Shown here piece after piece: positions 3,428-25,400 of a DNA stretch of 64,000 bases (position 1 is its first letter; every line of letters starts with the position of its first letter). The stretch lies in contig JAQOOI010000064.1 in the NCBI GenBank assembly GCA_028554645.1, positions 1,550,001 to 1,614,000 on the forward strand, given 5' to 3'. The translations under genes were made by a program, and so were the position numbers. The stretch is from Omphalotus guepiniiformis (Eukaryota > Basidiomycota > Agaricomycetes > Agaricales > Omphalotaceae). Below the pieces are notes generated by a model, which was not told where the DNA came from, searched no databases, and saw only the letters and a list, made by a program, of their open reading frames with translations.

Positions 3428-3992
3428 TCTCCCCCAAACTAAAATCTTGACCGTCCCCAGTCAATTCTTCAGCCAATCTACTGACTTTATTTTATAGCAC
3501 AGCAGTTGTTAAGAGTTCAATAAAATTTTCCTTCAACATTATTCATCCGGTCAATATTCCATTATTCAAACACCGGATCGAAAGCCGCTATGGCACGATC
3601 ACGTGACTTTTTGCCGAACTGCCGGAACTGAATACAAACAGCTTTGGCCTCACAAACTCAGAAGTGTGTTTTCCTAACTCGTTCATTTGAAAGATTTTCT
3701 GGAATATCGGCCCTCAACACGAGCTATTTCCCATCATAGGTGAGTCATTATTACCTTATACGTTGTCATGTCTTTTATTCACATCTTTTTGCTTTTCACG
3801 CCCGTCACTTCATTATATATGGGCTCAACTTCGCTTTTTCTTTCTTCCTATGATTCCTCTCCCTCCGACTCTCAAAATTTACAGAGCGAGCCGGAACTTC
3901 GTTCTTTCTCTTCTGACTTGCATTCTACTTCTTTTAATCATTCTATTCTTCTTCTGTGTTGGCTACATTCTCTTCCTTCTTCGTTTGCTCCA
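3428..3992 (+). promoter_or_regulatory. Polypurine tract of the outer element and promoter of antisense gene A
   Basis: TCTCCCCC at 3428 is the polypurine tract of the minus-strand element. The next bases, ACTAAAAT and GACCGTCCCCAGTC, match the equivalent place in the inner element (minus strand of 20041-20074). TATATAT at 3814-3820 is a plausible TATA box about 175 bp before the chosen ATG of gene A. An open frame extends upstream of that ATG to 3768, but it starts upstream of the TATA box, so I do not count it as coding. Confidence 0.6.
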
Positions 3993-5900
3993 ATGGCGCC
4001 CAAACCACCAACAGACGATAAACGCGGTAGCAAAAAGACGGCCCCAACCATTGAAGTAACAAGCTCTCGAAAACGCGTCGCTAAATCGAAGAATCCCGTT
4101 CCTTCTTTCGAGCCAGTCTCTCTTCCCCTTGTTCGACACCATATGTTACAAAAGTCGTTAACAAAAATTCAGGCCCAACTCTCCGAGATTTATATCGCCA
4201 ACTTCGAATCTCCGGACTACGAGAACGATTATCCCAGTGCCCGTGTCCTGGAGGCTCTAACATACACATACCTCGACTGGGTAAGACATTTTCTTTATTT
4301 TCTTTGTTCCTTGTATTAATATTTTTATTTCTACCTTCTAGTCTCATTTCTTCGACGACTGGGCTAACGAGACAGATCTACCTTATTACGCCTGTTGCTT
4401 CTGGTGGTCTATTTCTCGCCTTGCTTGGTTACTTCGCGACAAGGAGTGTAAGGAGTACAAAGACTTCGAACCTCTCGTCATCCCAAAAGCGACTACGAAA
4501 CGACTTCGCCAGCTGAAACTTTCGGTAACTCCCTTATTATACTTTCTTTTTCTTTACTAATTCTCTTTATAGCCTTTTCCCCTTTCTCGACAATTACCGG
4601 ACGTGGATTCGTACGACTTCAAGAACGAAGCCTCTTTCCAATTCGATTCCTTGCCTGAGTTTTCCGCTCCTCTCGATACCGAAATGTCTTCAGTTGCGCC
4701 TCCTGTGAAGGTTCTTACTGGAAATCCACTGGTCGAGGATGAATACTTGCCTTCTTCTACCGACTCCGACGATTCCGAGCAGCTAGACGAGCTTGCTTCC
4801 CCTCCTAAAAAGAAGGCGAAACATGACCCTTCTCCTTCTACTTCCAAGATTGTCACGCGTTCTGCAACTAGGAAACCCGAGTCGGTTGCTCCTGCTCGCG
4901 GTCGTGGTAGACCTAAGAAGATTAAACCCGAGGTTCGTATTCTTTACTGCTCTAATTTCCTTTTTATTTATTTCATCTTTGTCTAGGCTACGGAAGCAAG
5001 TGCCGGTGAGGACGATGAAGTTGTCGACACTGTTACCGCCAATCCGTTCGAGATTACTTACGCCACCAACGCAGTAAGTATCGTTTCTTTCATCTTTCTT
5101 CCTTTTATTAACCTTTTTAAAACAGCCTACTGGAAGCCGGAAATCACTCACACGAGATTCACGTTTCGCGTCTGCCGCTGCCACTATCCCTTTCCAATTC
5201 GTCGATCCTACCGGCTTGTGGCATAAATTCAAGGATCTCGTCTCGGTCAATCGGTCTCTCCAGGGTTACAGTCTCAACCCGATTTGCGCTGGCTGTTTAA
5301 CCGGCAATTTGAGTCAACCGTGCGTATGGCGCGGAGAGGATAATAAGTGCAGCGTCTGCGAGAAGTGGAAACGCCCATGTTTGTTCCAGTATTCCCTTGA
5401 CAGCATGGCGAAGGTTCGGGACCTAGCATACCAAGAAGGGCGTCAACACCCTGCAGGTAAGTCTTCATCCTTTTTCCCCTCATTTATATCCTTCTAATGA
5501 CTTTCTAGTTATCAATTCACATGTTTCCAATCTTCTACAGCTTCATACCGAGTTCGATAGCCTGGTTCGACAGTCTAATCAAGCACGCGAGTCTGCCAAA
5601 CGGCTTAGTTTGTTGATCCACACCGAGCAGCAGCGTCTTCGCGATGCTTGCATCGATGCTCGTAGCGTCCTTCGTTCTCTCGAACCTGACGCCGACTTCC
5701 TTGCAAACAAGACTCAGATGGAGCTATTGGCTGCCGCGCTTGGTTGGAAGGTTGACGACTTCCGTCTTCGCAGCGCCGTCGACGTCAACGACCAAGGAGA
5801 ACCGATTGCAGTGGATCAAGCGTACCTTGATAAGGCCAAAGAAAACGCTAATCAAAATGCAGGCGTTGGGGAATCTGAGGAGGTAAGTCCAGAAGCTTAG
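3993..5900 (+). CDS. Gene A: zinc-cluster / AT-hook protein carried antisense in the outer retrotransposon
   Basis: Not a family I can name. Splicing 3993-4280, 4342-4524, 4573-4932, 4987-5073, 5126-5456 and 5509-5900 (all GT-AG) gives an intact 546-residue protein. Around residues 236-240 is a nuclear-localisation-like PPKKKAKH, then an AT-hook (RGRGRPKK). A zinc cluster follows near residue 330 in the pattern CxxC-x6-PC-x8-CxxC-x4-PC. The C-terminal quarter is helical and charged (HTEQQRLRDACIDARSVL). The last codons may instead be spliced at 5883 (GTAAGT). The gene sits between pol and the 3' LTR, opposite to pol, and precedes gene B on the same strand. Its CpG-containing codons contrast with the AT-rich, CpG-poor gag-pol of the same element. 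The cysteine pattern resembles that of gene A in the inner element. A DNA- or RNA-binding nuclear role is inferred, not shown. Confidence 0.8.
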
Positions 5901-6608
5901 GCACTGGACTTTCTTCCTTCATTCATTATTTCGTGCCCCAGCGTCTTCTTTTGAATTACTTTCTTTACGCTTATCTCGATGGTCTCGTTTCTTTGTAGGT
6001 CGTGCTACGTCGCATCGAACATTTATTTTACACCTTGTCATTACCTTATCGCTGCCTGTACCTAAGTTTAAGCTCTACCCATTGCTTGTAGACACTTAGT
6101 GTACAGGAATATCATTTTTATTGTGCACCTTTTCTTAATTATGAAGGATTTTAAACCTTAAGACTCTAAGAAATCAAAATCGCAGCTGACTTTCTGAAGT
6201 CCGGCTGAAATTCAAAATCGAAGATTGTCACTCAGTGCTTAAATTCCATTTTAAGAAATGACCACAACTTCGTTATTACATTCTTTTAGCTTTATTATCC
6301 TTTTTATTCTTTATGTTTCTTTTAATTTGAAGGACGAATATACACCGGATAATAAATATATTGATAAGATAAATATATTGATAAGTTTTCCGGAACTTGT
6401 CACCCTCTCCCCCAAACTAAAAATTTCAGCGCCCCCGCTGAACATTATACCCCTAAGAGAATTTGAAGACAATTTTTCGACCTCAAATATTTTCAGCCAG
6501 GTACAATACATTTTTCAGCTATAAAAGAACAAATGTAAGGATCATAAATTGCATCGAACCAACATTCATTCGTTCTATAACTCATTATCACAAGCTCTTA
6601 CTTTCTCA
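5901..6608 (+). promoter_or_regulatory. Spacer between genes A and B; promoter of gene B
   Basis: 5901-6400 is AT-rich with no gene seen. At 6406 the block TCTCCCCCAAACTAAAA repeats the sequence found just inside the LTR at 3428. It is also found at 43691, where the following TTCAG(C/T)G(C/T)CCCC matches too. TATAAAA at 6520-6526 lies about 80 bp before the gene B ATG. Arrangement and motif suggest an independent RNA polymerase II promoter. Confidence 0.5.
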
Positions 6609-6957
6609 ATGGCCCCTACTCCCTCTTTCATCAAAGAAGACTGGCTTGCTTTGCTGGAACTTTGTCGCGGCACCTTTGACCGTGCTCGTGCTCGTAACGT
6701 TCCTGATGGAGAGATGTTCCATTTGCTAAGACACTTTGTGACTTCTTGGTACGTTATTTCATTTTTAATAATCGCCTGGCATTTAATAATAGTACGAGTT
6801 TAAGGTTAAACCCCTCGATATGGCTACTACAGCTGCCGACGACGAACTCTTCAAGAAGTTTGAAGACAACGTCACTGCCCTGCAGGCAGTTATGGCGGCT
6901 CGTCCTCAAATGTCGCCTCTTCGTTCTGTAGCCGGACTTCAGAAACACCTTGACCGT
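6609..6957 (+). pseudogene. Gene B, 5' part, interrupted by the inner element
   Basis: The ATG at 6609 opens MAPTPSFIKEDWLALLELCR. A probable intron ends at 6792 and the reading continues as ATTAADDELFKKF to 6957. The first intron's donor is uncertain: GTACGT at 6749 leaves a phase mismatch, whereas GTGACT near 6738 would keep the frame. The inner element then cuts the gene at its CCGT duplication, and the reading resumes in frame at 21316. An in-frame ATG at 6549 is possible but lies close to the TATA box. See the 3' part for the product. Confidence 0.7.
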
Positions 6958-8198
6958 TGATACGACCGCAGGAATACCACTACTATTTTCGGCCTCGCGG
7001 GATTGATCACTCCAGTACCAACCTACTAAGTACACTGTATAGTCCTAAGTTCCGCGGTGTATTACGCACATTCAACCACTAGTATATGTGTACAAAGGTG
7101 TACAAGACTGTAGAACGGCACTAAATGGGTCTTCTCAGTGTAGGTATTACCTAAGTATGCACTCAAGTAAAGCGTTGCGGCACTTGTTCTAAGGTCCGAC
7201 GTGTATAACTTGATGGCCACAATACTGTATAAACCAACGCGTAGGTAACGGAGTACCGCGGCACTACTCAGAAGGCCAGACTTAGAAACCAGGTAGCAGT
7301 AGCTCCGTGCACTAGTCATATCTAATGACCATTGTTGAGCCACAGAAGGGTCTAGACGTACGATGTAACACGAAGTACTTCCGACGACGCGGAAGTAAAA
7401 CACGTAAGAAGACACAGTGTTAGCAAACTACCGCGATACTTTCTAAAAGCGGCAAGATTATAACCCGATATAGGATACCCTGTTACCGCGTACTATACTT
7501 CATCCCTACCTTACGCGGTGCACCATATGCACCATATATCTCATAACTGTCAAGTATCGCGACATTTGTTTGTACTATGTAAATAGAAATACTGTATATA
7601 AGAAATAGAACCTGGGCAAGGAAGGACAGGTTCCCGAGCCCCCCCCATAGAGCTAATAGCATTTGTGTGTGGAAAAGCTTAAGTCCCTCTGAGTGATTAG
7701 AAGTTTTAAAGTTTAACCGTCGCGTTAGTTCATAAGTCAGTGTGCCTAAGTGTTTACAAGCGGGATCGTCTGGTACCGCGGAGCCTGTGTGTGTAGTGTG
7801 AATAAGAGTGGATCGTCTGGTCACTTGTTGAACTCGTCGTCTGGCAGTTCTGAAATACTCCTATACCCAACTCCACTAAAGTGAGAAGTCGTCTGGCATC
7901 TCCCAACAATCGTCTGGTTGTTGTATCGTTTGTAGTCACTGGTCGCGGTGATTTGTTAAAGTTACGCGTTAGTTCGTTTGAGTGATGTGTAGCATAGAGT
8001 TATCTGTGCCGCGTCGGTTTTGACTGTGTCTCCGAGCTCCTCTTACAACAACCTTATTCGCTTCACAGCGTTTGTTAGTCCCCCAAACCCCACGAACTTA
8101 AAAGTCTTTGTGTGTTGTGTGTGTGTTTTGAGTGCTTGATAGATTCATTCGAGTTAGTTAGCACTTCTTCTCATTCATACCCCATACCAAGCACATCA
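6958..8198 (+). repeat. Inner element 5' LTR (1241 bp)
   Basis: Matches 20075-21315 and the solo copy 45862-47102. It contains about 14 CGCG sites. Minus-strand frames of 117 and 113 codons occur in all three copies but are explained by LTR identity, not by coding constraint. Confidence 0.95.
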
Positions 8199-8220
8199 TC
8201 TGGAGCCCACCGCGAGGGGT
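8199..8220 (+). other. Primer-binding site of the inner element
   Basis: Immediately inside the LTR is TC followed by TGGAGCCCACCGCGAGGG. TGG complements the CCA end of a tRNA. The next base implies U at the discriminator position, and the following GCCCACC equals the tRNA's 5' acceptor strand. The same 18-base site is used by the outer element (29745-29762, minus strand). I could not assign the tRNA; it is not the usual initiator-Met type. Confidence 0.75.
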
Positions 8221-10049
8221 TTCTGATTAATAAACTAAGTGAAGTGTTTTAGGTTTCGTACGAGACCGAAGAGTTATAGTCGCGGTTGTCTAACCAACAA
8301 TCAGACAAAACGTCTAGACGAAGTTCACGGCCTTCAACGGTAGAGAATACCAGAGAGTCGTTAGCACGTGCAAAGGCAATCAAAAGAGTTAGTAGCTACA
8401 GGAAGTCACATCCTGAAGTTGTTGCTCAACCCCGAGAATCGATTAACGTAGTTGACGCGGAAGATTCGAGTATTAGATAGTCGCGGAACTTTGACGAAGA
8501 ACTATCTGATTACGGAGAAGGTACTTCAATTCAATTTCCTAGGCCAGACCCACCGTCGCGTCGAAACTCAGTAGTCCCCCCAACTATTGATAGACATTCT
8601 CATTCGGATGAGGAACTATCCGAAGTCCACACACTTCTATTTGATTTACATATTTCACCGAACTCTGCACCTATTTTACCTATAATTCAAGAAAATATCA
8701 TAAAAATGCCGGCTATGGACAAGATTCCGAGGAGAAGAGAACGTGGAGCGCCGGATTTGCGTCGCGATCATGATGTAGACGACGTCAGAGACTATCTGGG
8801 AGAGATTGAGGATATTATCCAAGATTTCAAAATAGAGGAAGAAGCGGATAAGAAATCAGTCGCGTTGCGTTACCTACCTGCAACTATAAGAGAACAATGG
8901 AAGGCGTTGCCTACGTATGAGAAAGAGGAAGGGACGTTTATCGAGTTCCGCGACGAGATTTTGAAGAGTTATGATGGAGGATCGGACGAGGGAACTTTCT
9001 CCTTCGCAAAATTCGAAAGAGCCGCGAAGAAGTACAAGAATATAACGATGGAAGATCTCGAAGATGTATTAAGAATGAGGAATACCCTACGGCCGTTCCT
9101 TAAGCACTACACTGCGACCGCGTTGTATACTAACAGAGAAATTGTCAGAGTCCTCCGCGGAATGTTCAAAGATGAATTTTGGAGATCCATCACGTTGACT
9201 TTGAAGTTACAAAAGCGTGCGAACCCACCTGCAGAAGCTAGACCGAGAGATGATGCCTATACAGCGGAAGAGATTCTGGACGAGGCAGAATTTAACGCGA
9301 GATCTCAGGTTGAGGAAGTAATTAGTCTTGGAAACGTAAGGTCCGCGAAGGAAGATAGAGGAAAGAAAGTAGAAAGAGTGAAGCATGAGCAAACGGAAGG
9401 ATGGGTGGCGGAATTGAAAGATCTAATCATGATCCAAACAAAGAACCTTACCCAGAGAGCCGCGAGAGAAGAAGAAATGATGGGAAAGCTGCTAGAGCAA
9501 TTAAAGTTCGCAGCACCTGGAACAAGTAGCAGTACCAGGCACCCAGAACGTATACCCTATATGGCGCCGCGGGACTATGGGAGAACCGCGTTGAATGACA
9601 ACCGTCCCGACTACTTTCGAGCCGCAACGTGTTGGTTCTGTGGCTTAAACGGACATATGGCAGGGCAATGTATGGTACGCAAGCAGTACGTAGATGATGG
9701 AAAGATCATTTTGAAAGAAGGGATCACTTGTATGCCAGATGGAGAACCAGTAGCACAGAAAGCTCCAAATGGGCCTCCTCAGAAAGACTTTGTGGACTGA
9801 AGACTGTCTGAAAAGAAAGTACAAGCTTCTCAGGTTGAGGTACTACAGATGCAACTAGAGGAGGTCGAGTCGTACAATAAACAGTACACTAGAGTTTGGC
9901 AAGAATATGAAGAGGCGAAGTGTGCTCAAGAAAGGGTGTTAGAATCCAATCTTAGCGCGGCCTATATTCGAGATTCGGCAAGAGATTCGATAAGTAACGC
10001 GGCAGTTGGTAACAATGAGAAAGGAAGGTTCGAGGAGGGTTTTCGGTAA
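8221..10049 (+). pseudogene. Inner element gag (CCHC), with two in-frame stops
   Basis: The frame is open from about 8281 with no ATG before 8706 (MPAMDKIPRRRER). The region before it is low-complexity and charged. It contains a TAG at 8478-8480 and, after the main 364-codon body, a TGA at 9798-9800, beyond which the same frame continues as a charged helix to the TAA at 10047-10049. The body (about residues 140-500) is the capsid-like region, followed by a CCHC zinc knuckle, CWFCGLNGHMAGQC, near 9633-9674. The TGA follows GAC and could be a decayed CGA. Gag forms the particle and packages the RNA. The stops suggest this copy is dead or relies on readthrough. Confidence 0.75.
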
Positions 10050-10057
10050 GTTCGAGG

Positions 10058-11263
10058 ATGGGAAGCCAGGCCCCTACAAAAGAGAAAAATCCTGTTAGGG
10101 CCGCGGCACCTGAGAATGATACTGAAAACAAGGGTAATAAACGACGGTTGTGGAAAGAAAAGGACGCGGAACCTGAAAAGGACGCGAGCCTAGAGAAAGA
10201 GAAGTATAAGGAGTTGGTCAAGAGGGAAAAACGTTTGAGATTCGATGGTGTCGAGATGCCTCCGCTACCTACAGTAGTGAAGAAGAGCCGTGTACCAGAG
10301 ATTCCTTACGCGAACGTACCTGATGTGTCGTATTCGCCAACTGAGCAAGAAAAACAGAAAGCTCAAAAAGAGCGGTTAGAGAACCCGAGGGGGATAATTT
10401 GGAAGATGAGGAATGAGGAGGCCGCAGAGTCTCCCGTTATTCCGTTAACTAAACATCCTGACGCGGAAGAAACCATAGTGGAATCAGAAATTTCACTCAG
10501 AGGAACAATCAAGTCAAGAGTCAAATTGAAGCCTGAAGAGACCGCGGGAGGTTTGAGAGAGATCCTAGCCAAAAACCCCCTACTGCCTTTTAGTGAGGAA
10601 AATGTAGGAGAGGTTCACGTAACAGCAAATACAGTCGCGTTAGCTGACCTTAATGTCACCGCGGAAGTTTTTGTTCTGAAACAGGCGGAAGGAGATCTTC
10701 CAGCAGGAGCGGTTGTGATTAGCGATCCAGTTGAGCAGTACGTGGAAAGCCTGGGAAGCAAAGATAACCCAATTCAGATCTACTTGGCAAGAGATTCAGA
10801 GTCGCTTCGATGCGTGTATCCTTTGGTAAATGGTACCGCGAAGATCGAAAGTCTGCTAGACTCGGGTTCGCAGATTATCTCTACATCGGAGAAAAGAGCC
10901 CGCGAAGCAGGTTTATCGTGGGACCCGGACATAGTAATCTTTATGCAATCGGCTAACAAGGGTGTTGAGAAGTCTTTGGGATTGGCGCGTAATGTACCAT
11001 TCTTACTAGGCGGAATCACCGTGTACTTACAAGTACATGTAATTCGAGATCCCGCGTATGAATTGCTACTGGGACGGCCTTTTGACACGATCACGGAAAG
11101 TTTAGTGGATAATTATGCAGATGGAACGCAGGACCTTGTTATTCAGGACCCTAACACTAAGAAACGAGCTGTTGTACCTACCTATGAACGAGGGAAAGGG
11201 TCTGTACCTATAAGCAAAGACAAGGAACAGACTCAGGGTTTTTCAGCAGCTTCGAGGAATTGA
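10058..11263 (+). CDS. Inner element protease ORF (pol N-terminal part)
   Basis: 401 codons, starting at an ATG 8 nt after the gag stop and in another frame. The N-terminal half is lysine/glutamate-rich and disordered. A retropepsin-like domain lies near residues 255-370, with the active-site motif LLDSGSQI around 10855-10878 and the hydrophobic ELLLGRPFD segment typical of the end of the fold. It overlaps the next ORF by 4 nt. The outer element's equivalent (26370-27761) has the same order and the motif VLDSGSQI. The stop-ATG spacing suggests re-initiation after gag; this is inference. Confidence 0.8.
   Translation: MGSQAPTKEKNPVRAAAPENDTENKGNKRRLWKEKDAEPEKDASLEKEKYKELVKREKRLRFDGVEMPPLPTVVKKSRVPEIPYANVPDVSYSPTEQEKQKAQKERLENPRGIIWKMRNEEAAESPVIPLTKHPDAEETIVESEISLRGTIKSRVKLKPEETAGGLREILAKNPLLPFSEENVGEVHVTANTVALADLNVTAEVFVLKQAEGDLPAGAVVISDPVEQYVESLGSKDNPIQIYLARDSESLRCVYPLVNGTAKIESLLDSGSQIISTSEKRAREAGLSWDPDIVIFMQSANKGVEKSLGLARNVPFLLGGITVYLQVHVIRDPAYELLLGRPFDTITESLVDNYADGTQDLVIQDPNTKKRAVVPTYERGKGSVPISKDKEQTQGFSAASRN
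11236..11242 (+). promoter_or_regulatory. Candidate -1 ribosomal frameshift heptamer (G GGT TTT)
   Basis: In the zero frame of the protease ORF the codons read CAG GGT TTT TCA, giving the X XXY YYZ heptamer G GGT TTT eight codons before the stop. Slipping back one base gives FSSFEELIPDQGE, which runs into the RT ORF and aligns with FSDLYDLIGPQGE in the outer element. Confidence 0.6.
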
Positions 11264-14200
11264 TCCCAGATCAAGGAGAAGCCGCGGTGGTTTTTGAGTT
11301 AAATGACGAAGGTATTCCCATTGGCATAAGTGAGGTAGTATTTGCAGATATAAACGATGAGCAAAAACCAAAATTTGAGAAGCGGGAGTTACGCGATCTA
11401 TACTTATCTGCCGCGGAGAAGTATATTGATCTAAAGAGTGATAAAGAAACGACGAAACCTGTATTGAGATCCTATTTGAGTTCGGTGTATGGAGCGCAAA
11501 ATCCTGCCACGTACTCTCAAGCAAATTTCACGGTGCAAGAAGTAGAGCTAGAAGACGGCGTAGAAGAGTTACAGCAAATTCCCCTGTTTGATGTAAGAAG
11601 CATCGCGATGCTTGATGTATCCCCTGATATGAAAGATCAAGTGAGGAGGCATGCGTCGCGGCTGTGGAAGGAACGGTACGAACCAGTTAGTATCTTGGCA
11701 GGGAAGAAATACAAACCTGTCGCGTTGAAAACACGCCCTGTTCTAGGAGATTTACCATCGAAGTTTAGAATCATAAGAGAAATTAAAGGAGATCCATTGG
11801 CTGATATGCCGCAGCTTTCGCCTAATCCTCCAGAATTCACGCCGACTGGTAGGTATACTCAGGAACGCAAAGAGATAATAGACGAGATACATAAGGAAGA
11901 GTTCCTTTGGCCAGAAGAACGGAAGTTGATGCATCATATGATGATGCAGCAAGAGAAAGGGTTCGCGTGGGACGACAGTGAACGCGGAAGATTCAGAACA
12001 GATTTCTTTCCTTCTGTAGAGATGCCAGTGATATCTCATACACCTTGGGTTGAGAGGAACATTTCTATTCCCCCTGGTATCTTTAATGAAGTATGCGCGG
12101 CAGTTAGACGAAAGATTGACGCGGGAGTGTACGAACCATCGAACTCGTCGTACCGATCGAAGTGGTTCGTGGTGTTAAAGAAAGATGGAAAAAGTATTCG
12201 ACTAGTACATAGTTTGGAGCCGTTGAACGCGGTAACAATAGTACATTCTGGTATACCGCCTGCTACTGAAGAGCTCGCGGAGAAATTCTGTGGTAGAGCT
12301 TGTGGAGGAATTCTAGATTTATATGTTGGCTATGATGAAAGAGAGTTGGCAATAGCATCGCGAGACTTAACTACATTCCAGACTCCCTTTGGAGCCCTGA
12401 GGCTAGTAACGCTACCGATGGGATGGACGAATTCAGTACCAATCTTCCACGATGATGTAACACACATATTACAAGAAGAGATCCCGGAGTTTACGCAACC
12501 ATACATTGATGATGTCCCTGTACGCGGTCCTGAAACGACTTATCAAAGTAAAGATGGCACGTACGAGACCATTCCTGGTAATGATGGGATACGGAGGTTT
12601 ATTTGGGAACATTTCATCAATATGAATCGGCTCATTCAAAGAATGAAGTACTGTGGTGGGACTTTCTCAGGCCCCAAAGCTGTATTGTGTAAAAGCGAGA
12701 TTACCGTGGTCGGACATAGGTGTACACGAGAAGGAAGAGAGATCGATCCGGAACGAGCAAAAACTATTACCAACTGGGGTGGACCTGAGAATATCCTAGA
12801 AGAGAAGGATATAAGACCATTCTTAGGCACCGCGGGACTAGTAAGAATGTTCATCAAAGACTATGCAAAGATCGCAGAGCCTTTAACCCGATTTACGCGT
12901 AAAGATATTCCGTTTGAATGGCGACAAGAGCAAAGTGATGCGTTGGCAAAGTTGAAAGAGGCAGTAAAGAATAGCAAGGCATTACGACCACTGAAGTATG
13001 ATGTGGAAGATCCTGTTATATTGGCAGTAGATACATCGTGGAAAGCTGTTGGGTTCTATATTTGTCAAGTGGATCCAGAGAATCTGCGACGAAGGTTCTA
13101 CTCCAGATTCGGTTCGATTACACTAAGTGATCGCGAAGCTAGGTTTTCGCAGCCGAAACGGGAGTTGTTTGGTTTGTATCGCGCGTTACGAGCGTGCCAG
13201 TATTGGTTGTTTGGTATTCGCAACCTTATAATCGAAACTGATGCGAAGTACATTAAAGGCATGTTAGAGCATCCTGATCAAATGCCAAACGCTGCGATAA
13301 ATAGGTGGATAGAGTCGATCATGATGTTTCATTTTAAACTGAAGCATGTACCAGGCAAGGTTCACGGACCTGATGGACTATCACGGCGGGATAAGCAAGT
13401 AGGTGATGATGAGTATGACAATCCTGAAGATGGTGAAGTTCAAGAACCCTATAAATTAGAGGAGTTTGTAGATAAAATCGACTCTAAGCATGGTTACGCG
13501 CAAGTATTAGTCGATGAGAAAGAAGAAGGGAGAAGTAATTATATGACTGGTTTAGCCGCGTCAGTAAACAACTTTAAGGAAGAATTGACGCGGGCGTACG
13601 AGCAAGAACGAGAGTTCCGCGACATACCAGAAGTAAAACAGTTTATAGCCGCAAACTTGGCTAGTGAAGTACCAGAACTCGAGGAGCCACCAGAGCATAT
13701 TGACGAAACAGAGTATGATGAGTCTAAGCGATCGAAGGGAGCGATAAACCAAGATAAAACAGTCGCGGAGGTTTTCAAATGGCTAACAGACACTTCTAAG
13801 AGGCCTGTAGGCTATGAGAATAACAAACGCTTCAAGAACTTTTTAAGGATAGCGCGGAACTTCTTTATACAAGACGGAAATTTCTATCGACGTGGAATCG
13901 AGGCAAAACATAAGCTGGTAGTTGAGAAGTCGCGTCGCGTCGCCATGATCCATGCTTGTCATGATAGTTTAGGGCACCGAGGCTTCTTCGCTACTAAGTC
14001 CTTACTTATGGAACACTTTTGGTGGCCTGAAATGGAGAAAGACATCTATGAGTATGTGAAGACCTGTCATACGTGCCAAGTAAGACAAAAGACAAAGATC
14101 AGGGTTCCTCCTACCGAGACGAAGACACCGTCAATCTTTCAGAAAATTCACGCTGACACCATGTATATGCCGGCATCGAATGGCTACAAGCTGATTGTGC

Positions 14201-15204
14201 ATGGTAGGTGCGGGTTAACCGGCTGGATGGAAGGAAGACCGTTGAAAGCAGAGTCCGCAAGAGCAATTGGACAGTGGTTGTGGGAAGAAATTATATGCCG
14301 CTGGGGCTGTCTTATAGAGATAGTTAGAGATAATGGCGGACCTTTTCTAAAGGCGTTGGAATGGTTAGAGAAGAAATATGGCGTGCGCGGTATTCGCATA
14401 TCACCCTATAACTCCCAAGCCAACGGTATTGTTGAACACGCGCATTATGATGTGCGACACAGTCTCATAAAGGCCGCGGGAGGTGACGATTCAAAATGGT
14501 TTTACTATTTTTATTTAGTAATGTGGGCCGATAGGTGTACAAGAAAGAGATTTGGTTGCTCCCCATTCTTCGCAGTAACTGGTGCGCACCCCTTGTTACC
14601 TTTTGATATCGTTGAGGCAACATGGCTTGTAGAATATCCTGATCATTTCATAAGTGACGCGGAGCTAATTGGACTACGAGCGAAAGCATTGGCTAAGCAC
14701 GCGAAGCATGTAGTTGAATTGCGGGAACGCGTAACACGTGAGAAAAGGTCACGGTTGTTGAAGTTCGAAAAAGAGTATAAGTATGTTATTAAAGACTACG
14801 CGTTTAAGCCAGGTAGTTTGGTGTTAGTTAGGAATACTCAGATTGAAAAATCTTTGAACTCTAAAACAAAGCCGCGCTATTTAGGACCTATGGTAGTACT
14901 CAGGCGTACCACAGGTGGCAGTTACATTGTGGCAGACCTAAATGGTGCGGTGTTCCAGAATAAAATCGGAGCTTTCCGCATAATTCCATATTGGCCAAGG
15001 TCGCACATTGAACTCCCTGAGAACCTAAGTGAGTTGATTGGTTTGTCAGAAGATGGCTTGTTGAGAATTGAACAAGGTCTAGAAGAAGAAGAAGAAGATT
15101 TATCCGTAGAACACGATCAAGCAGACCTAGATGGTGAAATTCACGCGGACGTTTCAGTATACGACGCGAAGCACTGGATATCGAAGCCGAAGATCTTTCA
15201 GTAA
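11243..15204 (+). CDS. Inner element pol: reverse transcriptase, RNase H, integrase
   Basis: About 1,320 intact codons, reached by -1 frameshift from the protease ORF (first in-frame start-like codon at 11260). The RT domain covers roughly residues 270-460. Its catalytic motif is YIDDVPVRGP (near 12500) in place of the commoner YxDDI. RNase H follows (ILAVDTSWKAVGF with catalytic D near 13030; ETDAKYIKG near 13235). The integrase has an HHCC zinc region (HACHDSLGH ... CHTCQ, about 13950-14080). It also has a D-D-E core: HADTMYMP near 14150, RDNGGP near 14330 and GIVEHAH near 14425. The glutamate is present, but the usual following arginine (ERAH in the outer copy) is histidine here. No chromodomain is seen. 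It copies the RNA and inserts the cDNA. Confidence 0.93.
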
Positions 15205-15423
15205 ATCACTCAAAAGATAGGGCCACATGGCAGTTTTATTATAAAAACGAGTGTATGATCTGTACGTGTTATGTTGAAATATACGCGACAAATTGGAAAT
15301 AAATAAGTTACGCGGTAGTTGAATACAAGTGTGGAAGGGAAACGGAAAGTTACGCGGTACCTCTATTCACGACAAGAAGATTAAAAAGTGTCGCGGAAGT
15401 ATGAGAAAAGTTCACGGAGCAGT
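15205..15423. other. Spacer between pol and antisense gene B'
   Basis: Short 3' ends of pol and gene B' converge here. It contains several ACGCGG/TCGCGG motifs and no coding region. Confidence 0.5.
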
Positions 15424-16862
15424 TCAAGTATCAGTCACGGAGGGCATATCTTCGTCGCCAGTCATATCGATAAGGGGAACGTTGGTTTTATTAACCAGCT
15501 CCTTCTGCTGCGACGCGATGCTCTGGTAGCTCTTCATCAGCAAATCCCGCATTTGGAGCTGGAGACTGATCTGATGGTTGACCGCAATAAGTTTAGAGCG
15601 AGTCTCGAACTCCAGCATGGTGAGGCTACGATCGGTAGGCCCACTAACAGGTTCGAGCACTGCGAGATTGGCACGATCAACGAGTGACTGCACAACTGAG
15701 TTAGAGAAAGTGGAGACAGGGTCTACCAAAAGATAGGTTAGTTGAAAAGTCGCTAGCAGCAGTACGAAAGCGTGACACGTACTAGGAGGTGCCAGAGGTG
15801 GATCGAGCATAGAGAAGTTGTGCGCCCAAGTAGGAGGAGCTGCCGCGACACTAACCACCTCCATCTTAGCTTTCTTGGCAGGAGGATTGATGATACTCTT
15901 ATCCACCGCGGCAACTGCCTTAAGGTATTGCCGTGAAGTAATAAGCATGCGTGGTATCTCAGAAAAGTGGAGATATCTTACGGGGTGATTAGTCGATGTG
16001 TGAGGCTATGAAAGGAGCGTTTAAGTCAGAATAACAGTGAGGGAAGGAATTGTGGTCGTACCCTTTTAACCGCCGCGACGCTAGGCTCAACCTTTGGAGT
16101 AAAGGGAGCAACGCGGGTAACTTCTTCAACTGCTGCGAGGTCGAGAGTCTGAAGCGAGGTACATAGTTTTAGCAACAGAGCAAGCTGGTTCGGGGTAGTG
16201 TGGCGACCTACCGTGGTATTAGTAGTGGAATCTGCAATAGAGGGGGATTCATCGTCACCCATAGCAATATCGCTACCCGCCGCGTCGTCGTCGACCTCCT
16301 CATCACTACTACCAATACGAGCTTGGGAGGCGATACGCTTGCAAATCTAAGAAAAAGTTTAATACCGGTGGTTATTCAAGAAAAGGACTGATTACTTACG
16401 CGGCGGCTAGTACGAACACGACCTTTGCCTTTGACGGGCACTGGGGTTACAGCAGTTGGAACAGGAGCAGCCGCGGTGACTTTAGGAACCTCCTTGGGTT
16501 TACCAAACTGAACACATTTACCGCGGTACGGACCAAGTAAATGATGAGTTGGGGTATACTTCGCGGTAACTGGGTCCCGCGGCAGTTGTTCAAAGAAGAA
16601 CAGCGTGAAAGTACGAATGTCAGCATTAGCCAACGCGGCATCAGGGTGGGCTTTCCAGAGCTCAAGCTAAAAAGAGTGAAGTAAGGTGCGGGAAGAGAAG
16701 TCAGCACAGTAGAAAACTTACGAGTTTTTGCGCACAAGACATCGCGATGTGATTAGCATCGTCAGCACCACGTTTGGCTCGACGCTCGCTAAACAACTTA
16801 TAAAGAGGTGCCACCTCTTCCACGAGAAACTGGACGTCAACAGAAGAAGTATCAGTGGACAT
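15424..16862 (-). CDS. Gene B': antisense accessory gene of the inner element
   Basis: Function unknown. Exon 1 (16862-16722, 47 codons) opens MSTDTSSVDVQFLVEEVAPL. Exon 2 (16666-16400, 89 codons) contains AALANADIRTFTLFFFEQL. Exon 3 starts at 16346 (ICKRIASQARIGSSDEEVD) and is acidic. A further splice from GTACGACC near 16060 to about 15960 links it to the last exons, with one more probable intron near 15780-15720. The C-terminal region is helical (RSLTMLEFETRSKLIAVNH) and ends in an acidic tail, DMTGDEDMPSVTDT. If the third intron is not removed, the protein ends at 16026. Position, exon layout and acidic ending match gene B of the outer element, though sequence similarity is weak. Confidence 0.65.
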
Positions 16863-17347
16863 AAGTGAATCTGATAGGAAGAACTTAGTGTTTGGAGGTC
16901 CTTTTTATACCTGGCCAGGGCAGTCTGGACCAGAAGGAAACTTGTCAACGTAGAATTCTAATTCCGCGACACTTACCGTCTTTCAAAGTTGACGCGGTGG
17001 AACATATAGTACTTTACCGAACGTCGCGAGTGTTCGCAACAACTGAGGACAGTTGTGATTTCAAAGATGGGGAAGGGTTGTAGGAATAGAAAGCACCGCG
17101 TACAGTTTAGTACCGTGTAGAATCGCGTGAATTTGGGAAAAGTGCCGCGTAGAATTTCTTGAATATTTTTGATTTTATTTAACAAGGAAAAAGTCACACA
17201 GCTTAAAATCACTCGATATAAAGCTAATAACATTTCCAAGTAAGTAAAATAAGAGAAAACAAGCTCCGCGATACTACAAACACTACGAGACTAAGAGCTT
17301 TTACTTCCGTGGAACCAGAACAAGAAGATGAAAGAAGGCAGGGACCA
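16863..17347 (-). promoter_or_regulatory. Promoter of gene B' and 3' end region of gene A'
   Basis: On the minus strand TATAAAA (16909-16903) lies about 40 bp before the gene B' ATG, so transcription would start very close to it. The rest is AT-rich spacer with several CGCG motifs and no other gene. Confidence 0.55.
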
Positions 17348-19629
17348 CTATTTCTGATATGCCTGATGTTCAGAGGTCGCGTTGATTGATTTGAGCTGCC
17401 CAGCCTCGATGGCGGGCAGGATCTTCTCATCCACAATCATTTGAGCAAGGTCACCACTAAGGCGGACCTGCGTCAAATAATCGCGACCGAAGTTATAGTA
17501 ACCCTGTACCAAAACGTCCGCGAGCTCGTCGATTTTAGCTTGGGCCATCTTCTGAATACCATGCATCGCGGCAACTTGTTCATTCAAGCGGTCAGTAAGC
17601 ATTGACGCTTCAAGCTGCAGAGCCATAGCATCTAAAGGAAAGATCAGAGAAAAGGGAAAGTAGTAAGAGAGAAGACATACGGCGCGCAGAAAAGAGGCCG
17701 CGGTTGTGGAAAGCTTCATCCTCCAACGCGATCTTGCGAATTCCATAGCGAAAGGTACATGCGGAGTCCTTCTTACTAAGACACTCATTGCACGACTCTC
17801 CAGCCTTGACGAAGACGCAGGGTTTGCCATGAATGATGCAAGACCCGCAGCGAATAGAGGGCTAAGAGGCAATGTAAGAAAAATAAGAAGAGAAAAAGCA
17901 CCGCGGAACTTACCAGGTTCACGGAGGAGGCCACAATCTGGCGAAGGCGAATATGGCTAGTCATTAGAGGGGGCACCATGCCCGGCAAATCATAATTAAT
18001 GAAACTGTTTGCAGGAATATTGTTGGCAGTATACCAGCGAACTCCGCCTTTGTAAGATCCGCCCACTGTAGTAGGTACCGCGGTGGCTTTGTCACCCTTC
18101 TCGATGGGATGAAGGTTATGCGGGATAAAAGCACCAAAGTGCTCCGCGGCGGGGAAAACTTTGTCGTACCAATGTTGGGGGTAACCCTCGACTTCACGAA
18201 GGAACCGACGTCTAGTTTTGAGGTCGCCTGGGCGAGGAGAGGGAGTGCGAAAGCGGTCGGCCTCTTGAATAGTCGACGCGGTAGTTTTTGTCGCCGGTTT
18301 AGACTTCCGCGAAGCTTTTCTTTTGCCCTGGAAAAGAAATGAGCAACGAAGCAGTTTACACAGGGAAGGAACTCACCTTGGTTTCAACCTGGGTAGTAGC
18401 AGGAGGCTCCATAAGAGTCGAGGGTCCCACCACAGAAGAAGGAGCCGCGGAAGTTGAAGGTAGCACAGGTACAGCAGGAGGAATGGGTACGGTACTAGTC
18501 AGAGGAGAAAACGCGGCTGGGACACCAGAAGGAGTGAGAGGCGCGGGACCAGATTCCACCAGTGGGGACCGTGTAGGAGTGACAGGAATAAGGTTCGTAG
18601 GAACCGAAGGTTCCGCGGCAGTAACAGTGAACCCTTGCGATAAGTCCACAGGAGGGGGAGAACGAGAAAAAGACTGGGAAGTAGAGTGAGTAAAACTAGT
18701 TGGAATAACAGGAATTACTCATGAAGCGAGGAGTTGGCGCTGTGTGAGGCAAGTCTCGCGTCACTGAGGTTACAGCAGCCACAATACCAACGGAGTTATC
18801 AGGCTCCGCGGAAGCCTCAGAATCACTCTCTACTCGTTTGCGCAAAGGGCCACGGCGACGCTTGGCAGCAGGAGGAGAGCCCTCGTTGGAAGACTCGACC
18901 GCCTCGTCGTCAAACTAAGGATAAGAATGAGAAGAAGAGTTAGTAGACAAGGAACAAAGGAGTACTTACCAGACGTGTGGGCCAGGGTTGGCGCTCCAAG
19001 TCAGACAAAGTACGAGGAGGCCACGGACGAGTTGTAACGGCAGTAGGCACAGGAGTCGCGGGAGGGAGCGAATAAGTCTCGTCACGGAACGCCAAAAAGT
19101 CATCGGCGAATTTCGCCTGATCCTCAGCGGTAACGGGAGTAAGCTATCGCAAGTTAGTTAAATACAACAGATAAAACGAACGCGGAACTAACCAGAGCGG
19201 ATTGACTAGGATGACGAGCACGACGTTTCTTGAGAACAGACAAAGCTTTATCACGGCGCTCTCGACGACGGCGTACGGGTGCGGAAGCCTCGGGAATGTT
19301 TGAAGGAATGGGAAGTACCGCGGAAGGTTGAACGGAAAGTTGCCCGGTACGGATCTGTTCAAGCAAGATAAGCTCCGCGGCGGATATAGACCGCTGTGAG
19401 CTGTCCAGGACTGAAGGCAAAGTAGAGGAAGGTCGAGGCGAAGCGTCGCGTCGTCTTCGTTTGTGTACGCGTGAAGTCGAGGGTTGAGAAGAAGGCATGA
19501 TAAAGGCGGCCTCAGAAGCAGTAGGAGAAAAAGCCTATCAAACGGGGCTAAGCAAAGAAGACAAGCAAAAAGTACCGCGTCACTTACTATTAAAGAATTA
19601 TAGTCAAGGGGTTCAGCCTTGATAGGCAT
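17348..19629 (-). CDS. Gene A': zinc-cluster protein carried antisense in the inner element
   Basis: Function unknown; counterpart of gene A. About eight exons. Exon 1 (19629-19588) is MPIKAEPLDYNSLI, exon 2 19534-19193 (basic, VHKRRRRDASPR and VLKKRRARH), exon 3 19143-18970. Then come a KRRRG basic patch, a proline-rich linker (18650-18380) and a conserved block with GYPQHWYDKVFPAAEHFGAF. The zinc cluster near 17870-17780 reads CGSC-x2-HGKPC-x8-CNEC-x5-C. After it a helical C-terminus ends at the TAG 17350-17348. The C-C/PC/C-C/C order and spacing match gene A (CAGC...PC...CSVC...C). The basic patches suggest a nuclear protein. The exact donor of exon 4 is unresolved. It has its own TATA box (19693-19687). 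Confidence 0.75.
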
Positions 19630-20074
19630 AAACCAGTGATGAAAGAGGGAGCAAAAAGTTGAAGTTCGGCACCCGGGCGCTGAAGGTTATATACACCTCG
19701 CGGCGATGGGGTCCTCAGATTGGTGCCAGTATCAAGCTCCATTCCTAGAAGACGCGAGAGCAAGAGTTTGATGTATTACACACTTATTCAGGGTACGACA
19801 TACAGCTTTGACAAAGAAGCGATGGCAATTCATTAACTGAATAACCGGTATGTCCGGGAACTAACGTAACCGGGCGATGAGGAATGAAGAGACGCGGCGA
19901 TTTACCAATAAGGCAACGTGATGAAATGTGATGTGACAAGAAGGAGGGAGAGCGCTACATGAGTCAGAAAGAAGTTTGTGATATCCAGAAAAGGGAGGTT
20001 GATGCGCCTTTCCGGGATAGACCCTGAGTAGGACCCCAGCGACTGGGACAGTCGATATTTTAGTCAGGGGGAGA
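19630..20074 (-). promoter_or_regulatory. Promoter of gene A' and polypurine tract of the inner element
   Basis: TATATAA (minus strand, 19693-19687) lies about 58 bp before the gene A' ATG. CAGGGGGAGA at 20065-20074 abuts the 3' LTR and is the polypurine tract. Read on the minus strand, 20074-20041 gives TCTCCCCC, ACTAAAAT, GACTGTCCCAGTC, nearly the same block as at 3428-3465 in the outer element. Confidence 0.6.
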
Positions 20075-21315
20075 TGATACGACCGCAGGAATACCACTAC
20101 CATTTTCGGCCTCGCGGGATTGATCACTCCAGTACCAACCTACTAAGTACACTGTATAGTCCTAAGTTCCGCGGTGTATTACGCACATTCAACCACTAGT
20201 ATATGTGTACAAAGGTGTACAAGACTGTAGAACGGCACTAAATGGGTCTTCTCAGTGTAGGTATTACCTAAGTATGCACTCAAGTAAAGCGTTGCGGCAC
20301 TTGTTCTAAGGTCCGACGTGTATAACTTGATGGCCACAATACTGTATAAACCAACGCGTAGGTAACGAAGTACCGCGGCACTACTCAGAAGGCCAGACTT
20401 AGAAACCAGGTAGCAGTAGCTCCGTGCACTAGTCATATCTAATGACCATTGTTGAGCCACAGAAGGGTCTAGACGTACGATGTAACACGAAGTACTTCCG
20501 ACGACGCGGAAGTAAAACACGTAAGAAGACACAGTGTTAGCAAACTACCGCGATACTTTCTAAAAGCGGCAAGATTATAACCCGATATAGGATACCCTGT
20601 TACCGCGTACTATACTTCATCCCTACCTTACGCGGTGCACCATATGCACCATATATCTCATAACTGTCAAGTATCGCGACATTTGTTTGTACTATGTAAA
20701 TAGAAATACTGTATATAAGAAATAGAACCTGGGCAAGGAAGGACAGGTTCCCGAGCCCCCCCCATAGAGCTAATAGCATTTGTGTGTGGAAAAGCTTAAG
20801 TCCCTCTGAGTGATTAGAAGTTTTAAAGTTTAACCGTCGCGTTAGTTCATAAGTCAGTGTGCCTAAGTGTTTACAAGCGGGATCGTCTGGTACCGCGGAG
20901 CCTGTGTGTGTAGTGTGAATAAGAGTGGATCGTCTGGTCACTTGTTGAACTCGTCGTCTGGCAGTTCTGAAATACTCCTATACCCAACTCCACTAAAGTG
21001 AGAAGTCGTCTGGCATCTCCCAACAATCGTCTGGTTGTTGTATCGTTTGTAGTCACTGGTCGCGGTGATTTATTAAAGTTACACGTTAGTTCGTTTGAGT
21101 GGTGTGTAGCATAGAGTTATCTGTGCCGCGTCGGTTTTGACTGTGTCTCCGAGCTCCTCTTACAACAACCTTATTTGCTTCACAGCGTTTGTTAGTCCCC
21201 CAAACCCCACGAACTTAAAAGTCTTTGTGTGTTGTGTGTGTGTTTTGAGTGCTTGATAGATTCATTCGAGTTAGTTAGCACTTCTTCTCATTCATACCCC
21301 ATATCAAGCACATCA
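20075..21315 (+). repeat. Inner element 3' LTR (1241 bp)
   Basis: Direct repeat of 6958-8198 with about seven transitions between them (for example ACGCG/ACACG and TTCGC/TTTGC near the end). It is followed by the target duplication CCGT at 21316. Confidence 0.95.
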
Positions 21316-22287
21316 CCGTATGGTTCAAGAACGTCTCAAGAATGCCACTGCTGCTGCCGAAGCAGTCGCTAAGGCTAAGGAAGAAGGTAACAATCGGAAA
21401 CGCAAGGTACAAATATCTACCGGACTTATATTCATTATCTAACTTTATTCCAGGGCAAGGAAACCCCCAAGTCAAAGGCTGTTTGTGACGACGACGACAA
21501 TGTTGAAGTCATTATTACCCCTTCTCTCAACAAAACTGTCGGTGAAGCACTTGTAAGTAATTTCCACCCGGTAATTAATACTTTGTACTAACATTTTGTA
21601 CACATTGTTCTTACAGATGACTGATGGTACCAAGGACTCTAGCAGCGCTAAAGAAGCTAGTGCTATCAAGAATCTTACTGTAAGTCACTCATTATTTTCA
21701 ACCGGACATATATTAATTCGTTACTAGTTCCGTAAGGCAGAACTTATCGCGAACCAACACGCCGTTGTAAGCATGCCATACTCAGCAGTTCCGGGATTGG
21801 ATCAATCCTCTAGCGCATACAGGAAGGCTAACCACTACATTTCGAAGGGCTTTGCGACATCCGGCCAAAAACGACTTAAGTTGGAAACAGCTGTTTCAAA
21901 CCTTAGTGAAGAAACTGACTGTAAGTACACACTTAATAGTATTCAATATACATTCTGACATTATTCTTTATAGTTGAGAAGGCCCTACGTGATATGGCTC
22001 ACACCAGTGTTCTTAAGACACTCGCGTTCGTTCCATACTACGATTACGACCAGCTCACACTCGAATCTCTTAAGGCTATACACAATTGCCTTCGTACCGA
22101 GTGTTCTACCCTCGCCCACATTGTTCAAACCAACGGCGCTCATTATCGTGACATGCAGAAGCTAGCAGACAATCTTTCCTTAGTTATTAAGAAGAAGTCC
22201 ATTAAAGGTAGTTCCGATGTAGATGGAGATGACTCCATGGACTCAGTAGATTCTACCTCTACCACCGACATGACCACTGACGAGTAG
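21316..22287 (+). pseudogene. Gene B, 3' part (antisense accessory gene of the outer element)
   Basis: Reading resumes at the CCGT duplication in the frame that left 6957: L-D then R-M-V-Q-E-R-L. Exons are 21316-21406, 21454-21552, 21617-21679, 21728-21920 and 21974-22287, all with clean GT-AG borders. The protein is lysine/alanine-rich and helical at first (AAEAVAKAKEEGNNRKRK), then has a short acidic stretch. Its helical C-terminal domain contains FVPYYDYDQLTLESLKAIHN, and it ends in an acidic tail (SMDSVDSTSTTDMTTDE). I do not recognise the fold. The coding exons look undamaged apart from the insertion, so the gene was probably intact when the inner element landed. Confidence 0.75.
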
Positions 22288-22444: not shown

Positions 22445-25400
22445 TCACGTCTGTCTTTTTGACCTGGTTTTGACTCTTTCGTCCCAATCTGGTTCCTCAT
22501 TGTCTTCTAAGTTGTCCCCAAGATCCGAATCACTGTCTTCTTCATCAGAATTGTCCCCTTCAAGCCTAAGATTGGGTATGGCATCAAAAATATAATCTGT
22601 ATTTTTGACCAAGTCTTTATCTTCATCCTCAATCATAGCTTCCAATTGCTTACTATCCAAGTCTATTAGTTCATGAATATTGTCTGGCAATTGTATAGGT
22701 TCGTATCTGGCTGCATGTGGTAGGACTCTAAATGCTGCAACTTTTTCTTTGAGCACTGATCCATCCATTTCTGCAATAACATATGATCCACCCTTTGTCC
22801 TTCTGATTACAATCATGGGACCCTTATATCTTGGATACATCTTTCTGTCTAAACTCTTCTCAATCTGAGTGTTCCTGACTTGAACCAGAGTTCCTGGTTT
22901 AAAGTCATAGTCCTTTATAGTATTTCCATATTCTTGTTCAAACTTTATTAATGCTTTTCTTTTATTTTCATCTACTCTTTCCCTCATTTCATTCACATGA
23001 GTTCTATGCTTAGCTAGAGCTTGTGCTCTGAATCCAAGTAATTCTTCATGAGTCAGAATTCTGTCTGGAGGTTTAACCAACCAAGTTGATTCCACAATAT
23101 CCAAAGGTAGTATTGGCTCTGCCCCAGTAACTATGAAGTATGGAGAACATCCAAGACCTCTTCTAACAGTCACTCTATCTGCCCAAAAGACATGTTTCAG
23201 AAACCAATACCATCTTTTCAAATCTCCACCAGTTGCTTTTGCCAAAGCAGTTCTGATATCAAAATGAGCTCTTTCTATCTTCCCATTGGCTTGAGAATTG
23301 TATGGAGATATAGTAATACCTTCTATACCATATTTCTCTTCCAACCATCTCAACATTGCTCTCATAGCTGGGGCATTATCAGTGATAACCTCATCAGGGC
23401 AACCCCATCTACAGATAATATCTTCAAAGAACCATTCACCCATTAACCTTGCTGTCTCTGATTTCAATGCTCTACCTTCTGACCAAGAAGACAATGCACA
23501 TCTACCATGAACAACATTTGAACAGCCATTACTAGGTGGTGATACTTTAAACACATCTACATGAACCTTTTGAAACAAAGAAGGTGTATAGGTAAGAGTG
23601 GGTGGTATTTTCAGAAGTTCCAACTTTCTATTTTGACAAGCCTGACATGATTGGACAAACCAATTAATATCTTTCTCCATATCTGGCCACCAAAATTGCT
23701 TGTCTATGACAGCTTTAGTTGCAAACATCCCTTTATGACCCAAATTATCATGTGCAGCATGCATCATGTACATTCTCTTTGCTTTAGATACAACCAACTT
23801 GTGTTGACCATCTAGTTCTTCATTCCTTCTATACATTTTACCATCTTTATCAACAAAGAACTTAACAGCTTGTCTTAGAAAAGATCTCTTTGCAGTTTTA
23901 TTCAAACTTTTAATAACAGCTGAGTTCTTGTCTTGATGCCAATCCTTTATTAAAGGTAGAAGATCATCCATCTTCTTTCCTTCATCCCTTCTATGTACCT
24001 CACTATAAGGATGAGAATTACTCCACTCTGGATCTCCTGGTGGAATTACTAAAGTTTGAGCAAAAGCACTCTTCACCATTCCATGAGCTTCCAAAACTCT
24101 AATCCTATAACATTCTGCAATCCTCTCTTCCTCTATGCATTCTTGCAAATCATCTTCAAAATCATTTTCAGAGTTTGCCATTTCAAAAAGATAACCACCT
24201 CTATTGTCTATTTTATCTCTGAAAGACTCAAAGTCTAGTGGTATATCATCTTCTTCATTTTGCATTCTAAACTGTAATGGTTCTCCATTATCTTCATCTA
24301 CATAGTCTTCCTCATTTACAGGTGGTCTTTCAGTTGTTATACCTCCAGGACCCCTTCTAGATAGACCATCTGGTCCATGTAAAGTTCCCTTAACATGTAC
24401 CAATGTAAACTGATATTTCCTTATATCCTCTATCCACCTGTTTATAGTTGCATTAGGACCTGAACTGGGATGATCCAACATGCCCTTATATAGCTAGCAT
24501 CTGTTTCCACAGTCAAATTCCTACACCCATAAATCAAGTAATAAGAAGCTTCTAAAGCTAATTTCAGACCATACAGCTCTCTCTTTGGTTGAGAAAACCT
24601 TGCTTCCCTTTCATTCAATGTAATTGAACCAAAGTAGTTAAAGTACTTCTTCTTAGGATCTTCTGGGTCAGTTTGGTATATATAATATCCAACTGCCATC
24701 CAAGAGGTATCTACAGCAAGTGTAATCCCATTTTCTGACATATAGTCTATAGGTCTCAAACAAGGTGCAACTCTGATAGCTTCCTTAAGAGCTACTACAG
24801 AATCCCATTGTTCAGCCTTCATCTCAAATGGAACATTTCTGGTCAAATATTGCAAAGGTGCAGCAATTTTAGCATAGTCCTTTATAAATTGTCTAAGTTG
24901 GCCAGCAGTACCCAAGAAAGCCCTGACATCCGTCTTAGAGTCAAATCTTTGCCATGTAGTAACCACTTCTGCTATCTTATTAGAAGGTGCTTGACCCTCA
25001 TATAAACAACGGTGACCAACAACCATGCCTTCTTTTACACAAATGAATGCCTTTGTACCAGAAAATGTACCACCAACATATTTCATTCTTTGTATCACTC
25101 TATTCATATTCTGCATATGTTCCCATACAAATCTCCTTATACCATTGTTTTGAGGAATAGTTTCATATCTGCCATCTGGTAACTCATACCTTGTTGCTGG
25201 ACCCCTTACAGGTACATCATCAACATAAGGTATAGTCACATGTGGAATTTCATCTCTTAGAATGAAAGTAACATCATCATGAAAGATAGGTACTGAGTTA
25301 GTCCAACCCATAGGCAGTTTTACTAGCCTATGTGGGCCAAATGGTGTTTGGAAGGTGGTTAAGTCTCTAGAATCATCATCTATCAACCTTTCATCATATC

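Follow-up and report, generated by a model that had tools for sequence, protein, structure and literature searches.

Why would a retrotransposon carry, between pol and its 3′ long terminal repeat (LTR), a pair of genes that point against its own gag-pol, and what might such genes do? The question is raised by a 64,000-nt stretch of Omphalotus guepiniiformis DNA (the window), in which an element of one Ty3-type family (F1, the outer element) is interrupted by an element of a second family (F2, the inner element). In both of them, the region between pol and the 3′ LTR holds a gene A followed by a gene B (A′ and B′ in the inner element) in antisense orientation. An initial annotation had described these genes as spliced pairs, each gene with its own TATA box, in families with clearly diverged gag-pol. 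These points were borne out: models with coordinates were obtained for all four genes (Table 1), TATA-like boxes read by eye stand ~45-180 nt upstream of each start, and the integrase ends of F1 and F2 are ~56% identical. Splicing and promoters are predictions from sequence. The genome-wide searches covered the 42.5-Mb assembly of 80 contigs, where two further groups of elements, here named F3 and F4, were found.

Gene A occurs as deeply diverged types in near-identical elements

In both F1 and F2, gene A exists as deeply diverged, interchangeable types set in near-identical backbones. When the outer element was compared in 100-nt bins with the F1 copy on contig C46, the LTR was 95-100% identical and the leader of A 87-98%. 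Identity then dropped in the bin with the A start codon, stayed at 46-82% across the gene, and was regained over its 3′ flank (73 to 97%), with B and pol at 91-100%. Sliding bins between the inner element and two copies on contig C74 gave 95-100% for the LTR and 95-98% for the leader, a drop in the opening 60-100 nt of A′, 38-83% across A′, a return to 95% at the start of B′, and then 90-100% in B′ and 88-100% in pol. The LTRs were 97.5-98% alike in the between-type element pairs. Synonymous divergence (dS) between types was 0.085 (F1) and 0.118-0.121 (F2) in pol, and 0.113 (F1) and 0.119 (F2) in B; for A, in the same pairs, every part measured was saturated or exceeded 1.6. The A proteins of different types shared 64% (F1) and 57% (F2) identity, and the introns 54-63%. 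The F1 types were 38-58% identical over residues 1-300 and 80% thereafter. Uniformity of gag across A types was measured in F1, where all 23 rows covering 1-605 were 94-100% identical, including the type II elements C46:232340, C20:2148044 and C12:562701.

The 14 near-full-length A rows of F1 were all of type I (92-100%). Twelve further F1 loci comprised nine of type II, two decayed copies of type I (L079 and L082) and one mixed locus (L075). Across the families, typing made use of models of decayed copies (L071, L073, L074, L076-L082 and L024) that may bypass damage through false introns. In F2 we distinguished at least a type I, a related form (L024-L027, where the L024 gene model extends into B′) and two subtypes of type II. 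A locally raised mutation rate in A, instead of an old coalescence, would agree with the introns diverging alongside the exons. This is very improbable, however, as A differs little within types (the 14 rows above, and 92-100% again in 15 rows of a second search) and, in F1, falls into discrete types.

The types of A recombine. Judged from 620 diagnostic sites, locus L075 changes from type II to type I at about residue 460; its first 300 nt align poorly to either type. The window A′ was 92-100% identical to L011-type copies, except for a patch at ~18180-17730 over the cysteine exons (80-89%), which matched L024 and L025 at 93-97%. Such recombinants show that exchange occurs, and exchange might even account for the whole pattern if one or a few recombination events between long-separated lineages had placed a distant A in a shared backbone and recombination had homogenised the remainder, with no selection on types. 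The presence of only two types in F1 and the gradual recovery of identity across the 3′ flank of A, as expected of breakpoints there, fit this neutral swap. We nevertheless consider it unlikely, because a random swap should strike elsewhere too: A is the divergent gene in F1 and F2 (and, by search matches, in F3), whereas gag is uniform in F1, and pol, B and the LTR are uniform in both window families.

The dimorphism probably extends to F3. Search matches at five loci of this family (on C78, C38, C76, C18 and C20) gave 52-57% identity for A and 97-98% for the last exon of B, the sizes being rough since the matches run over introns. Common-type F3 copies read in the same way gave 93-95% where two of the five odd loci gave 66%, so the difference in A is real even if its size is rough. 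The three F3 A loci that were read nearly or wholly (L064, L083 and L084) were all of the common type.

Integrity and selection

Gene A is under purifying selection. Compared with the window model, five of seven type I copies of A were frame-intact, with ratios of nonsynonymous to synonymous differences (pN/pS) of 0.10-0.23 (n=7). Among the A′ copies, 13 of 14 were frame-intact and 12 of 14 had a pN/pS of 0.07-0.09; the outlying values were 0.46 in L010, a very close copy, and 0.29 in L022, which is broken. The least certain part of the A′ model is its fourth intron (100 nt, with a weak donor). All 14 near-full-length DNA matches to an intron-bearing A query covered 997-1001 of its 1001 bases. 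The window gene B is doubly broken, since the inner element cuts the gene and exon 1 lies in another frame.

The two genes usually travel together: a B C-terminal exon was found on the same strand, at most 3 kb downstream of A, in 24 of 32 typed A rows, lay 8-16 kb away in three, and was missing in five; conversely, A was missing for four of 31 typed B rows. The survey recovered A and B homologues in many copies of F1 and F2, as well as in F3, and the last exon of B in F4. Because the cassette is present and selected in many copies, it is not a one-off capture of host genes.

These data also bear on what is being selected. The antisense transcripts could act as RNA, either as double-stranded RNA or in antisense control of gag-pol, with the proteins incidental, and excerpts of one study (PMC7264820) discuss antisense transcripts of other elements in such a role. 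Already disfavoured, this idea is hardly credible in view of the purifying selection on the protein, the intact frames, and an exon structure that is kept while the introns diverge. Another possibility is that the A protein has an anti-silencing or counter-defence role and that its types follow a polymorphic or fast-evolving host factor, with no self-recognition involved. The concentration of fast change in the N-terminal part of A speaks for it, and an independent dimorphism in two families would fit a common host pressure. Yet A is conserved within types (pN/pS mostly 0.07-0.23) and positive selection was not seen; we regard this explanation as quite possible, if rather unlikely.

Homology of the cassette across families

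The initial annotation had also proposed that both families carry the same cassette and that it predates their split or was exchanged, and had suggested profile comparisons. The relationship was clearest between F1 and F3. The search with B returned 31 further loci at 28-32% identity, which belong to F3; the integrase end of this family is mostly 72-73% identical to that of F1, and B then A follow pol in antisense. Profile comparison with hhalign gave a probability of 97 for A of F1 against A of F3, with all six cysteines conserved, and of 98.7 for B against B, and the genes match in order and intron places. F4, represented by 54 rows at 73-76% in the search with the integrase end, possibly holds more than one family. 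The 651 nt that follow pol, read in one copy, encode a homologous last exon of B behind a phase-1 intron in the same place. These comparisons support the view that the cassette predates the split of the related families F1 and F3, and the F4 exon of B agrees with it.

For the two families of the window, the proposal of a shared cassette stands in part. Order and orientation agree, and A and A′ are probably homologous: their hhalign probability was 19-21 (E ~0.001), a result that lay above all 60 of 60 column shuffles, and the alignment fell on the cysteine cluster. Six cysteines, one valine and one lysine were invariant in seven A-type sequences of three families, and a phase-1 intron follows ~26 residues after the sixth cysteine in A of F1, F2 and F3. 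L071 and L024, whose models come from decayed copies, were among the hhalign rows. B and B′ gave no sequence signal by hhalign, with five of 60 shuffles scoring equally high. They agree only in a 141-nt first exon and in the intron phases 0,0,0,0,1, a pattern that depends on the 6-exon model of B′; homology of B and B′ by exon architecture is plausible.

Might A and B instead be unrelated host genes, captured separately in each family? The missing sequence similarity between B′ and B would be expected in that case. On the other side, F1 and F3 share homologous A and B genes that agree in order and intron places, and A′ has the cysteine exon and its boundary intron in common with A. This explanation, already disfavoured, appears extremely unlikely.

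In A, A′, B′ and loci L060, L063, L064 and L083, the last predicted intron has phase 1 and all others have phase 0. From this common pattern, A and B could be old duplicates of each other; profile comparison of A with B showed no sequence similarity. A single predicted host gene, with mixed phases, passed into the intron-phase baseline, so the 0,0,0,0,1 pattern is uncalibrated.

Protein features and database searches

The six-cysteine cluster of gene A spans residues 360-391. The F1 proteins contain a basic motif, RGRGRPKK in type I and GRGRPKK in type II, which we take to be AT-hook-like. An amphipathic helix follows the cysteines (shuffle p 0.0005-0.018 in four of five sequences, 0.10 in the window A′). 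GAL4-type Zn2Cys6 domains (PF00172) have the spacing CX2CX6CX5-12CX2CX6-8C. That of A′, CX2CX6CX8CX2CX7C, fits this pattern, and A of F1 and F3 has X8 between cysteines 2 and 3. No match to PF00172 or to the TRP28 domain (PF04195) was found in A, A′ (as a partial N-terminal model) or B′ at E ≤10. For the last exon of B, AlphaFold proposed two helices, with a predicted local distance difference test score (pLDDT) of 74 and a predicted template modelling score of 0.39.

Sequence searches of the PDB returned no relevant match, and neither A nor residues 330-624 of A′ matched anything in the protein database search. In the same search a pol control matched 1159 proteins, with the mushrooms Lentinula edodes and Armillaria ostoyae among the species named, which shows that the searched set contains proteins of fungi. 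The null result for A and A′ does not establish their absence elsewhere, because gene calls in metagenomes capture intron-rich genes poorly and fast-changing proteins share few words. A scan of viral contigs with the inner integrase produced 12 pattern matches, none of them confirmed.

A proposed role for A and B

The reading that we rate best is that A and B serve as nuclear accessory regulators and that the types of A are kept by rare-type advantage or by an arms race with the host. Taken whole, with resident accessory genes, A carrying the specificity and its types moved between backbones, we give this reading an even chance of being right. A and B would reside in a clade of large Ty3 elements of O. 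guepiniiformis, and the host machinery would transcribe them against gag-pol from predicted promoters of their own. Their introns would survive transposition because of the antisense orientation, as the copied sense genomic RNA would leave them unspliced. A is most probably a regulator that would contact DNA or chromatin in the nucleus, as suggested by the AT-hook-like motif in F1, the six-cysteine domain and the amphipathic helix, and B, with its helical C-terminal domain, would be its probable partner. The specificity of A might be directed towards copies of its own type, in a self-repression or interference that a rare type escapes, or alternatively towards a polymorphic host factor. Old types would be kept, and template switching in the course of reverse transcription would carry them from one backbone to another. 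The more specific proposal that A is the determinant of type specificity, with the A type sorting copies into interference groups, rare types escaping control and several Ty3 families of one fungal genome having evolved and kept types side by side, is tentative and quite unlikely.

Old types, purifying selection and shuffling among uniform backbones would together match what is expected of type-maintaining selection. Several observations weigh against our best reading. The two A types of F1 are fewer than a strong rare-type advantage might leave, and the likeness of the LTRs between types argues against an A that recognises its own LTR. As the data come from one genome, type-maintaining selection and a neutral swap are inseparable. 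The Pfam scan of A, A′ (as a partial N-terminal model) and B′ at E ≤10 returned one chance-level match only, so that the zinc-cluster label comes solely from cysteine spacing, and the AlphaFold model of the cysteine exon was unusable (pLDDT 46).

In two families, and probably in three, near-identical copies thus differ in one gene, which is present in old alternative types. The function of A is testable, since its types should differ in what they recognise. If our best reading is true, selection would be maintaining the types of a retrotransposon gene, for which there are few examples.

Anatomy of the window

The outer and inner elements are Ty3-type LTR retrotransposons, by their paired LTRs, target-site repeats and domain order (Table 1). 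The target-site repeats are of 4 nt, GCGC for F1 (2045-2048 and 31143-31146) and CCGT for F2 (6954-6957 and 21316-21319), and the primer-binding-site sequence TCTGGAGCCCACCGCGAGGG is common to both elements. Matches to aspartic protease, RNase H and Integrase_H2C2 were found in the gag-pol of both, in the Ty3 order of protease, RNase H and integrase zinc domain; the outer gag-pol also has a CCHC knuckle and DUF4100. At E 0.01, the gag-pol frames of neither element matched RVT_1 or the integrase core. The outer pol, split into two frames, is broken, since other F1 copies have a single pol frame of 1323 aa (amino acids).

Table 1. Features of the two nested elements, in window coordinates
Feature	Position	Strand	Details
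Outer element (F1)	31142 to 2049	-	~14.7 kb once the inner element is subtracted
F1 3′ LTR	2049-3427	-	1379 nt, 14 mismatches vs 29764-31142
F1 5′ LTR	29764-31142	-	1379 nt
Outer gag-pol, four frames	22445-29590	-	gag 27773-29590, protease 26370-27824, RNase H 24442-26415, integrase 22445-24493
TATA-like box of A	3814-3819	+	by eye
Gene A (type I)	3993-5900	+	546 aa, no stop, 6 exons (predicted): 3993-4280, 4342-4524, 4573-4932, 4987-5073, 5126-5456, 5509-5900
TATA-like box of B	6520-6527	+	by eye
Gene B, left piece	6609-6957	+	exon 1 frame differs from C18 and C46 copies
Gene B, right piece	21316-22287	+	exons to 21406, 21454-21552, 21617-21679, 21728-21920, 21974-22287
Inner element (F2)	6958 to 21315	+	14.4 kb, inserted within outer gene B
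F2 5′ LTR	6958-8198	+	1241 nt, 7 mismatches vs 3′ LTR
F2 3′ LTR	20075-21315	+	1241 nt
Inner gag-pol frames	8481-15204	+	8481-9800; 10019-11263 (protease); 11188-15204 (RNase H, integrase)
TATA-like box of B′	16902-16909	-	by eye
Gene B′	15424-16862	-	5-exon model of 404 aa, or 6-exon model of 383 aa
TATA-like box of A′	19687-19693	-	by eye
Gene A′	17348-19629	-	8 exons (predicted), 624 aa; type I with patch ~18180-17730 (cysteine exons) matching L024/L025

Other copies and elements were noted. The window holds two probable solo LTRs, one at 38088-39464 that belongs to the outer family (96%) and one at 45859-47102 that belongs to the inner family (99.4%). At C18:302700-329550, match positions suggest that an F1 element (A and B at 303-307 kb, gag at 327730) encloses the cassette and pol of an F3 element (310-321 kb), which would be a second case of nesting among these families. 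A Ty1/copia-type element (58002-63287 of the window, minus strand; RVT_2, Pol_BBD, gag_pre-integrs and CCHC) is bounded by 390-nt repeats at 58002-58391 and 62898-63287. As reverse transcriptase-like DNA resembling the outer pol follows just past it (63526-63950), the copia-type element may have inserted into a third Ty3 element. A degenerate tandem array with a CAGTGAGTGTCAGTGACA-like unit and periods of 49-182 occupies 42264-43017, and a weak match to a Mutator-like element (MULE) transposase, under the curated cut-off, was seen at 32592-33146.

Comparison with known systems

Antisense genes between pol and the 3′ LTR, termed aORF-3R, are described for plant Ty3 elements in excerpts of two studies (PMC7264820, PMC11963269): gene23 of Grande, RIRE2, Retand (TRP28) and PvRetro13. 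There, an own promoter and a nuclear protein are reported for Grande, and DNA binding is predicted for TRP28 of Retand; the antisense extra reading frames of LTR elements are described as having no established function in the excerpt of the former (PMC7264820). The cassette of O. guepiniiformis resembles these genes in place, orientation and presence in most copies. It differs in being a gene pair, with five to seven predicted introns in each gene and a six-cysteine cluster in A, in the interchangeable diverged types of A, and in that A, A′ and B′ gave no match to TRP28 or another Pfam family.

The initial annotation knew of no spliced pair of this kind in fungi. Worded as novelty, this has to give way, as an antisense extra gene, brtn, is already described in Boty / BcGypsy1 of Botrytis (Zhao et al. 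2011, as cited in excerpts of PMC7264820 and PMC8365987). By description, both are antisense extra genes of a fungal LTR element, but the excerpts on Boty describe one gene, with no pair or types, unlike the pair and types found here. In the literature searched, with full text limited to open-licence articles, we found no description of a spliced antisense gene pair in a fungal LTR element, nor of interchangeable types of an antisense LTR-element gene. The kind is therefore already known, from plant elements and Boty, and the interchangeability of A types is the unusual part.

HBZ of human T-cell leukaemia virus type 1 is spliced and encodes a basic leucine zipper (bZIP) protein. It is an antisense gene of a retroelement, according to an excerpt of PMC11963269. 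By description it is an antisense nuclear regulator in a retroelement, as A is proposed to be, but its promoter lies in the 3′ LTR. Diverged gene versions in near-identical flanks, exchanged by recombination, are found in phage immunity regions, retroviral env subgroups and the mating-type idiomorphs of fungi. Here the likeness to A is by analogy only and not by homology, A being a probable nuclear protein that is coded in antisense. Interference groups set by A type would follow a logic like that of env subgroups or the immunity groups of phages, with the difference that an antisense-coded nuclear regulator would be the determinant.

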